A stretch of DNA of 45,761 bases, from assembly GCF_009914725.1 (NCBI RefSeq), contig NZ_JAAAWJ010000011.1, positions 1 to 45,761 on the forward strand, in the 5' to 3' direction. Each line of letters begins with the position of its first letter. Position 1 is the stretch's first letter. The notes beneath the pieces are model-generated. The model was not told the origin of the DNA. It saw only the letters and a program-made list of their open reading frames with translations, and searched no databases. The translations under genes were made by a program, and so were the position numbers. The stretch comes from Methanogenium sp. MK-MG. Its GTDB lineage: Archaea > Halobacteriota > Methanomicrobia > Methanomicrobiales > Methanomicrobiaceae. Of this stretch, positions 27,805 to 30,603 are shown piece by piece.

Positions 27805-28110
27805 AATAAGCTCCGGTATATCTCAAATGATCTTATGAAAGTATATTGATATTAAATCATTAAGAAGGCTGGTATCTCCACAGAAGTAGTCAGTTGTTTT
27901 TTTCCAGCCGTCAAACTGACGCTGTAGTTCATCCCCGTCGGGATTTGAGGGTGTGGATTCCCAAACACCCCGGATGAACGGTTCAGCCCGTCGCAACACG
28001 AACAGGCCATTACCAAATCCCGTCTGCCTGGTTCCGGCGGGGTGCCCGTGGCGGGGCAGTCTCTGCATTATTTTCTTCCCGGCCCGGAGAACATTTCACC
28101 CTTTCACCCG

Positions 28111-28307
28111 GTTTTCACACGCAAAGTGAAAATACAGAGACAAAAAATAATGCCCGTATTGATGCGTATTCTTCTCAATAAGCATAGTATAGAGATATAT
28201 GTACAGATAGTAAGGGATGTTTTCATGCGATCGGAGGAACATACAGCATGTCTGATTACTTTGCGGGTATGTGTCTGCGTCTCTGTGATTCCGGGAAGAG
28301 TGAAAAC
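28111..28307. mobile_element. Possible MITE-like element with inverted ends
   Basis: The left end, GTTTTCAC...ACAGAGAC (28111-28118 and 28134-28141), and the right end, GTCTCTGT...GTGAAAAC (28279-28286 and 28300-28307), are inverted copies of each other in both 8-base blocks, with similar spacing (15 and 13 bases). The 137-base interior is AT-rich and carries no gene. The total of about 197 bases fits a small non-autonomous element. No target-site duplication is obvious. Confidence 0.4.
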
Positions 28308-28570
28308 GAAGAGACGGATGTAATATGCACGTCAAAACAAGCAGTTAAAGGTCTTAAACGGGGGATTTACCCATATTTACACGGAATGATAAACAAAGAA
28401 ACCGTATGAAAAGGTGAAAGACCACCGGCTGAATATTGGAGACGGGGCCACCCTTTTTTATTCACGTGACAGGGAAATCGGGGGGCAGAGCCACCATATT
28501 TTCGGTTCATAGTTACAACCCGAAAAACACGGGCGCAGTGCCATTCGTCTGCTCAGATATCAATTCATTA

Positions 28571-28735
28571 CAGACTATCAAGGGGTCTCTATTAGCGGAT
28601 ATTATTGGAGGATGTATTGGTTGTCTCAACGGAGAACGGCCCGCTCCGGGCTGCTGTGTGAATATTTTTTCCGGGGCACAGAACAGCGGAATCGATTATT
28701 TATGTGTTGTTTGCCGCAGACATCAGGATTAACCC
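28571..28735. repeat. Dispersed element, copy A
   Basis: This 165-base stretch aligns over its whole length with 30342-30510 in the same orientation, at roughly three quarters identity by eye. Shared blocks include GGTTGTCTCAA, CTGTGTG-(A/T-rich)-GGGGCACAGAAC and a GCCYG/CRGGC hairpin. On the minus strand it can be read as FCAPEK...PGAG...LRQPI, but copy A has a stop just before. The plus strand reads PAPG.CV.IFSGAQN. Coding ancestry, structured RNA and a mobile-element end are all possible. Confidence 0.75.
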
Positions 28736-28952
28736 ATACATGGCAGGGATACGGTCGCGGACGGCTTTGGGATATTCTTTGTGTGTGGTGATGGCTCATG
28801 CCCCCGTGATCCGGTAACCCGGTGTCCCGATAAGAGTTTGGAATGTGTTCACTGCCTGATGATACATCCGTAGGGCAGCCGGTCATATGCTGCACCGGCC
28901 ACCCACCCAAAGAAGAGAGAGAGACCTGAACTTCCGGCAGGGCGGCTTCCCC

Positions 28953-29159
28953 TCAGTGTGCCATCACCCGGGCCGGATTCCAGCCGCCCGTCATCCGCTC
29001 CGCCCTGATGAGTCTGGATATCCGGTGCAGTGAAGAATGCACCTTCCGGTACCTGAGGTTGGCCAAAACCTCCTCATTCAGAAAGAGACCGATGATCTCT
29101 CCCTCGCTGGTCAGAATCTCTTCGGCAAGGATGAGCGACAGATCAAGGCGACGGCTCAC
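28953..29159 (-). CDS. Small hypothetical protein
   Basis: The 68-codon frame starts with GTG 29159, with GAGGA about 8 bases upstream. The product is amphipathic and looks protein-like: SRRLDLSLILAEEIL, then GEIIGLFLNEEVLANLRYRK, and a basic end. It suggests a small helical protein, but I recognise no family. It is divergent from the 331-codon gene, with 69 bases between their starts, and both lie between the two dispersed element copies. Confidence 0.5.
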   Translation of the reverse strand: MSRRLDLSLILAEEILTSEGEIIGLFLNEEVLANLRYRKVHSSLHRISRLIRAERMTGGWNPARVMAH

Positions 29160-29228
29160 AGATTAGTCCTCATGCTTCGCTTGTTGTGTTACTCTGACAA
29201 AACGGGGTGAAATCCGGAGAATAAAAAT

Positions 29229-30224
29229 ATGGATACCATTACCAATAATAGTATGATACTTGAGGAAAAGATATCCTTTGATGAGGAGTTTACTGCCCTT
29301 GAATTTATAGACTGGCTTACTGAGTTCGGGTGCAAGGCCAAATTACATAAAACGTTTGAATATTTTACCGAGGATGTCATCAGCGGCAGTATTGATGACA
29401 TTGACAGCTGGTGCAGTGAAATGAGCACTGATGATCCGGAACTGTCTCTTGAGTATCTGGACATTAAACAGAAGAATTTAAACGTAAAATATGCCATGCA
29501 AATCATCCTTGAAGGTCGTTCTGTCGGAGATCTGATCTATACCCGTAAGGATTGGAAATTATCAGATGTAAAACTCATGTCAGCAATAACAAAAAGTCCG
29601 GTCGTAGACATACTGGATTTTTCATCAGAGAGATTCAATAACGAGATTTTCAATAAATTGCCCCTGTCCTATATTCATCTGCTCATCAAAGATAGCGATT
29701 GCATTTCTGAATCTGAGGATGGTTTTACGCTTACCAGGGACATAACTCCTGGGGAGATAATAAATGAAATGACCATTGATTCACTGAATTTGTCTGATCA
29801 GGTGGAATACCCGGGATTATGCAATATATTCAATTACATCCCCGATATCAGCTATGAAGTGATATTTTCACTGCCATCACACATTCATCTGGAACCTCTC
29901 CATCTTGCCCGTAAATTGGGTGAACTGGGTATTCATCAAAAGGACATCCGGGAATTAATTAACCCGTTTTCATTAAAACGCCAGATTATTCTAAAGATTC
30001 TTGAAATTATTGAAGACAATAAGGTGATATCCACTGAAGAATTAACAAATAAGCTTAGGGATGTCCAGCTGGGCGGTGCTGATGAATGGGGACATTCCAT
30101 TTTATTAATCGATATCATCGTAACACAGCAGTTTGTTTTTGAGCTACGCAAGGCAGGATACATTACCGGAAATGATCAAAAACTTAGAATCCCGTCAAAA
30201 CCGGGAAAGAGACGAAGAAATTAA
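29229..30224 (+). CDS. Hypothetical protein, AT-rich gene in an accessory segment
   Basis: The 331-residue product is soluble, acidic in the first two thirds and basic at the end (KPGKRRRN). It has no membrane segment. The first 110 residues are helical and acidic (FTALEFIDWLTEFGCKAKLH and following). Residues about 245-325 (SLKRQIILKILEIIEDNKVI, then LRKAGYI) have the helix pattern of a winged-helix domain, which could bind DNA, but this is a guess. Base composition is clearly more AT-rich than neighbouring housekeeping genes, and it lies between two direct repeat copies, both suggesting transfer. GGAG lies about 11 bases before the ATG. The family is unknown to me. Confidence 0.75.
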   Translation: MDTITNNSMILEEKISFDEEFTALEFIDWLTEFGCKAKLHKTFEYFTEDVISGSIDDIDSWCSEMSTDDPELSLEYLDIKQKNLNVKYAMQIILEGRSVGDLIYTRKDWKLSDVKLMSAITKSPVVDILDFSSERFNNEIFNKLPLSYIHLLIKDSDCISESEDGFTLTRDITPGEIINEMTIDSLNLSDQVEYPGLCNIFNYIPDISYEVIFSLPSHIHLEPLHLARKLGELGIHQKDIRELINPFSLKRQIILKILEIIEDNKVISTEELTNKLRDVQLGGADEWGHSILLIDIIVTQQFVFELRKAGYITGNDQKLRIPSKPGKRRRN

Positions 30225-30273
30225 GCAACTGGTCAATCAGACCTTCATGAAATATATTCAGGAACAAGGATGA
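30172..30273 (+). CDS. Short overlapping reading frame of 33 codons
   Basis: Starting at ATG 30172 inside the end of the 331-codon gene, a second frame encodes a highly charged, protein-like peptide (IKNLESRQNRERDEEIKQLV, then NQTFMKYIQEQG) and stops at 30273, 12 bases before the IS605-type hairpin. It could be a small coupled gene, or the true C-terminus of the 331-codon gene displaced by a frameshift. There is no clear ribosome binding site. Confidence 0.35.
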   Translation: MIKNLESRQNRERDEEIKQLVNQTFMKYIQEQG

Positions 30274-30278
30274 CTCGC

Positions 30279-30307
30279 TTACATCCCCTTGGCTAAAGAC
30301 CAAGGGG
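30279..30307 (-). mobile_element. IS200/IS605-type end hairpin with TnpB-like tail
   Basis: CCCCTTGG at 30285-30292 and CCAAGGGG at 30300-30307 form a perfect 8-bp stem with a 7-base loop. On the minus strand the hairpin is read as RKTPWSLAKGM and a stop, a form that I associate with TnpB C-terminal tails. The frame is open back to about 30647 on the minus strand, across repeat copy B, but contains no recognisable TnpB catalytic domain. It is probably the right end of a lost element. Confidence 0.5.
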
Positions 30308-30341
30308 TTTTACGCTTTATTTGTAAATAGTCAACGGATTT

Positions 30342-30510
30342 CGGACTATTAAGGCGCCGCCATTGGCGAATATTTTGGGAGGACATTATCGGTTGTCTCA
30401 AATGAGATCCGCCTGCTCCAGGCTTCTGTGTGGACATTTTTTCAGGGGCACAGAACTGCGGGAGATATAATTTATGCGTTATTTTGACGCAGATACCAGA
30501 ATTACTCCCT
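30342..30510. repeat. Dispersed element, copy B
   Basis: The partner of 28571-28735, 169 bases, in direct orientation. It begins 35 bases beyond the IS605-type hairpin. The hairpin GCCTG-CTC-CAGGC here corresponds to GCCCG-CTC-CGGGC in copy A, with both sides of one pair changed. A TCTC/GAGA stem keeps its arms while the loop differs. Closing arms CTGCG/CGCAG in B correspond to GCGG/CCGC in A. The minus-strand frame is open in this copy; the plus-strand frame has a TGA. Confidence 0.75.
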
Positions 30511-30603
30511 AAATGACGGGAATCGGAATCCGTAGCTGCATCATTCATCCTCCACATAATGATCCCCCTCTCCACCGCCGCACATGATTCAAAAGCCCCG
30601 ACC

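Follow-up and report, generated by a model that had tools for sequence, protein, structure and literature searches.

Repeats A and B, which lie in a 45,761-nt stretch of Methanogenium sp. MK-MG DNA (the window), belong to a large family of dispersed, noncoding elements of about 235-420 bp. Judged from sequence, the family probably consists of noncoding RNA genes in many copies, which spread in the manner of a non-autonomous mobile element. In many Methanomicrobiales the short motifs are preceded by the same promoter at an unchanged distance, which argues for a multi-copy RNA.

A (28571-28735) and B (30342-30510) align almost end to end, as the original prediction had stated, and are 76% identical. 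The repeat is real, but these bounds are too narrow when compared with the family profile (Table 1). B has retained promoter and core; about 80 bp of its far (3') end are missing beside the hairpin at 30285-30307, as seen in the alignment to the family profile. The two copies had been read as direct repeats that bracket a cargo: the repeats are there, but in a phylogenetic tree of 97 family copies A and B are mutual closest relatives (support 96/87), indicating that the pair arose by local duplication, in a family that forms head-to-tail arrays elsewhere.

Table 1 Positions of copies A and B, of their promoter and core motifs and of neighbouring features in the window
Feature	Position	Strand	Basis or remark
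Copy A, full profile match	28446..28785	minus (proposed RNA sense)	nhmmer family profile, positions 27-360, 255.6 bits
Copy A TATA box ATAAATAA	28696..28703	minus	sequence; 45 nt upstream of CACAG motif
Copy A core motif CACAGCAGC-N11-CGTTCTC	28632..28658	minus	sequence, family motif
Copy B	30299..30547	minus	nhmmer family profile, positions 108-357, 199.7 bits
Copy B TATA box ATAAAT	30470..30475	minus	sequence; 45 nt upstream of CACAGAAGC
Copy B core motif CACAGAAGCCTGGAGCAGGCGGATCTC	30404..30430	minus	pattern scan, one mismatch allowed
331-aa ORF between the copies, outside the element	29229..30224	plus	no Pfam/PADLOC family
Second, rarer repeat adjoining copy A	28017..28440		genome copies
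Perfect hairpin CCCCTTGG-CTAAAGA-CCAAGGGG, 7-nt loop	30285..30307		edge of shortened copy B

The genome that holds the window has 41 copies when searched with copy A, 43 when searched with a consensus and about 59 when searched with a sequence model, and the best further matches to copy A in this genome have E-values of about 1e-30, which chance cannot account for; the element is therefore a genome-wide family and not a local pair. It is present in five of the six other Methanogenium genomes, and copy numbers in six genomes of this genus are 59, 58, 37, 24, 61 and 10 (sequence model); named matches include M. cariaci, M. marinum and one Methanogenium MAG. The only genome of the genus sample with no copy at all is G004, which is placed in Methanogenium and is 82% complete: loss of the element, misplacement of this incomplete genome or an early branch are possible reasons. 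Weak matches in other genera share the conserved islands, and a cross-genus pattern was derived from these: CACAGAAGC-N11-CGATCTC, with one mismatch allowed and the reversed pattern as control. Multiple copies of the pattern occur in Methanogenium, in the genus that contains Methanolacinia petrolearia and in one genus of another family (16 matches in genome G093 and 34 in genome G123), and the reversed pattern has zero matches in the genomes in which the forward pattern is multi-copy. A cross-genus model, with which no more than 15 matches were counted in any one genome, matches 44 of 199 Methanomicrobiales genomes, representing 19 of 38 genera, with more diverged sequences outside Methanogenium; a scan of 247 genomes of the phylum had no match outside Methanomicrobiales.

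On the minus strand of the window, the element carries an archaeal BRE/TATA promoter (consensus (G)TTAAGCAAnnCTTAAATA), followed by about 45 nt and then by CACAGAAGC, which is part of the conserved core CACAGAAGC-N11-CGATCTC with its fixed gap of 11 nt; in both A and B, the distance between TATA box and motif is exactly 45 nt. A TATA hexamer starts at positions -47 to -43 relative to CACAGAAGC in 88% of 33 loci, 80% of 10 loci, 85% of 34 loci and 70% of 70 loci of four genus groups, while the background elsewhere within 75 nt upstream is about 0.5-2% per 5 nt. When genera are weighted equally, the information profile has conservation islands solely at BRE/TATA, CACAGAAGCCC, CGATCTC and ACATC-TC; the latter corresponds to a third linear motif, ACATC(C/G)TC, in the first part of the unit. 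A noncoding core that is conserved and preceded at constant spacing by an archaeal BRE/TATA is what a promoter-driven noncoding RNA gene would show. The functional strand is probably the minus strand of the window. It was assigned from the side of the conserved core, because a TATA box reads almost alike on both strands, and a motif model built from the genome's own tRNA promoters could not tell the strands apart, being too weak for an assignment.

In the mechanism that we propose, the BRE/TATA promoter that each complete copy carries would drive a transcribed unit of some 200-250 nt, the core of which lies 45 nt downstream of the promoter. This unit bears CACAGAAGC, CGATCTC and ACATC(C/G)TC in its first part, and an RNA would be its likely functional product. 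No clear 3' end or terminator was found for the proposed unit. The element yields exact predicted start sites: on the minus strand, transcription would start near 28675 in A and near 30447 in B. Copying would take place at the DNA level in genus-specific bursts, like that of a non-autonomous mobile element, and units would also duplicate head to tail behind a single promoter; in the arrays, the promoter segment is found only on the unit predicted to be transcribed first. Copies that have settled behind the 3' ends of genes would then be kept by vertical descent, either the RNA or transcription itself being useful or tolerated.

The original prediction had offered a structured RNA, the relic of a small gene and the right end or omega RNA of an IS605-type element as explanations. 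Among these, an RNA appears best supported, by its promoter and linear motifs, but covarying hairpins fail. The arms GCCCG/CGGGC versus GCCTG/CAGGC, TCTC/GAGA and CTGTG/CACAG are all present in A and B, and the compensated change is a genuine difference between the two copies, but not a family-wide pattern: across about 100 copies, the stems GCCCG/CGGGC, CTGTG/CACAG and CGTATTTT/AAAATACG pair as expected for independent columns, and covariation fails on both strands. APC-corrected statistics, tried as a source of covariation signal, recovered only two promoter subtypes. The GCCCG stem lies in the 11-nt spacer, whose sequence varies from genus to genus (CCGGAGCGGGC, CCTCAGACGGC, CCCAGAATCCA); this stem is therefore not general and is absent in other genera. 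Folding energies are not distinctive, with a mean z of about -1 on both strands, and Rfam searches were negative, both at the gathering score for the window and at E-values as high as 0.5 for six loci of the family. An H-type pseudoknot was rejected: several copies carry uncompensated mismatches that disrupt its first stem, and its second stem is weakly supported. The one observation in favour of an RNA held by hairpins or by a pseudoknot is a Methanolacinia-type stem between the segments that follow CGATCTC and GAAAA, whose pairing slightly exceeds that of permuted partners (p of about 0.02); however, the antisense control gives a signal at least equal to the sense one, and there is none in Methanogenium or in the genus g28. 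We consider such a structure improbable, and the conservation consists of short linear islands.

Neither of the two other proposed origins is supported by the family data. Long open frames occur in some copies by chance, but no frame is kept: core lengths show no preference for any of the three frames, no single frame is open in more than 9 of 91 copies, conservation lacks a three-base period, and each sense frame of the Methanolacinia copies contains 2.7-3.8 stops. The perfect hairpin that adjoins copy B looks like a transposon end and resembles an IS200/IS605 end, making this a candidate for its origin only. It was identified in 2 of 341 loci, most of which are family copies, and both cover the same spot of the window; an IS605 right end or omega RNA as the identity of the family is not supported among these loci. 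Descent of the family from a small protein gene or from the end of a transposon is, in our view, hardly credible. Viral spread was also considered and rejected: two matches of the pattern in IMG/VR lie inside GC-rich genes of tailed phages and were judged to be chance.

Within the copy tree, species are interspersed, with 36 changes compared to the least possible number of five, and strongly supported pairs are often formed by copies that occupy one gene junction in different species, as expected of copies inherited vertically at these sites. Examples that are syntenic at both flanks are L005/L102, L009/L063/L082, L010/L093, L013/L074, L054/L086 and L076/L084/L090. Syntenic copies are 79% identical in the core, 71% in the promoter-side tail and 61-65% in the adjoining spacers; the lower divergence of the core suggests selection, with the reservation that the difference may be inflated since the core anchored the alignment. 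In the head-to-tail arrays the unit repeats roughly every 225-255 bp, and the longest arrays have four units. One locus (L010/L096, G000:C94:1950-2674) and its counterpart in M. marinum (L093) are arrays of three and four units between the same two flanking genes: the number of units varies at a site that is kept.

Copies favour the 3' ends of genes. Of 50 Methanogenium placements in which both neighbouring genes are near, 25 are in convergent, 22 in tandem and 3 in divergent spacers (genes were called as longest open frames, uncurated), and the T-rich end of the element faces the stop codon of the neighbouring gene. In other genera the bias is weaker (9:8:7:4, with crude gene calls). A tRNA gene lies within 400 bp of 7 of 43 copies, and the copy always faces the tRNA 3' end. 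Copy ends are ragged, with variable truncation at both ends, and neither terminal inverted repeats nor target-site duplications were seen at the ragged ends that were inspected. No mobility enzyme or partner transposase was seen.

Some of these data would also fit a purely selfish, MITE-like DNA element that is tolerated behind the 3' ends of genes and whose promoter and motifs are remnants or serve as binding sites for its own replication. The family is multi-copy, noncoding and dispersed, as MITEs are; its genus-specific sequence, the truncations, the strong excess of convergent over divergent spacers and the proximity to tRNA 3' ends all point the same way. However, copies stay at the same junctions together with promoter and motif across species, motif spacing is conserved across families and neither inverted repeats nor target duplications were seen at the ends inspected, and we regard a purely selfish element as rather unlikely. 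Alternatively, the element could be a DNA site that works without an RNA of its own, for example a terminator, an insulator or a nucleoid or supercoil element between convergent genes. The preference for tail-to-tail spacers in Methanogenium, the orientation of the T-rich end and the lack of a supported RNA structure would agree with such a site, but the element is directional, a terminator would not be expected to have a TATA box at constant spacing and the placement bias is weak outside Methanogenium; this explanation too has a low probability. A multi-copy RNA gene that spreads in the way of a mobile element is the explanation that we prefer.

Several known systems share features with the element. 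MITEs and other non-autonomous mobile elements of archaea are short, noncoding and multi-copy and have no enzyme of their own; all of this is also true for the element, but it has a promoter at strict spacing, and neither inverted ends nor target duplications nor a partner transposase were seen. Bacterial REP/BIME sequences are palindromic, favour convergent spacers and can form arrays, and roles as terminator, insulator or in the nucleoid have been proposed for them. The element has the same preference for convergent spacers and also forms arrays, but it is much longer, not palindromic, bears a promoter and comes from an unrelated lineage. The trans-acting alpha-r14 or 'cuckoo' small RNAs of alpha-proteobacteria have many promoter-driven copies per genome, some with UCCUCC-like motifs. 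Many promoter-bearing noncoding copies per genome and, in Methanogenium, a UCCUCC-like motif are found here too; however, there is no sequence relation, the promoter is archaeal, and in other genera UCCUCC is replaced (ACATCGTC). An anti-Shine-Dalgarno role of UCCUCC was rejected, as the motif is not conserved outside Methanogenium.

The nearest published family are the repetitive potential G-quadruplexes (rPQS) of Methanomicrobiaceae, dispersed multi-copy intergenic repeats with short G-runs and a C-rich flank; about half of them lie in tail-to-tail spacers, while head-to-head spacers hold few (PMC8044849). The element resembles them in being dispersed and intergenic, in its preference for tail-to-tail genes and in its occurrence in the same order; its Methanogenium copies have two G-runs, in contrast to the four G-runs and C3TC3 flank of rPQS. 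The idea that rPQS are the far end of the element was convincing at three loci, but was rejected as only one of 12 sites in Methanolacinia petrolearia adjoins the element: the two are mostly separate repeats. The 12 M. petrolearia sites (G008, L327-L338) are exact matches to GGGTT(C/G)AAGGGAGGG, and two pairs of them are about 270-290 bp apart.

A literature search that covered few subscription journals identified no published description of the element, and it appears to be previously undescribed. Methanomicrobiales are major methane producers, and we found no account of a repeat or RNA family of comparable size in the order. With its exact promoter-to-motif spacing across genera, the element would represent a large RNA regulon that has escaped discovery, or else a clear example of an archaeal noncoding gene that is mobile. 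More speculatively, the copies could be order-wide archaeal RNA genes that were amplified anew in each genus like eukaryotic SINEs and whose products, tens of promoter-driven, mutually similar RNAs with the shared short motifs, act together in trans, a possibility that we raise tentatively.

The AT-rich 331-aa ORF between A and B has no homologue in the six other Methanogenium genomes and was probably acquired recently. The second repeat, adjacent to copy A, has eight genome copies; the best four directly adjoin copies of the main element, with which they form a composite of about 0.8 kb.
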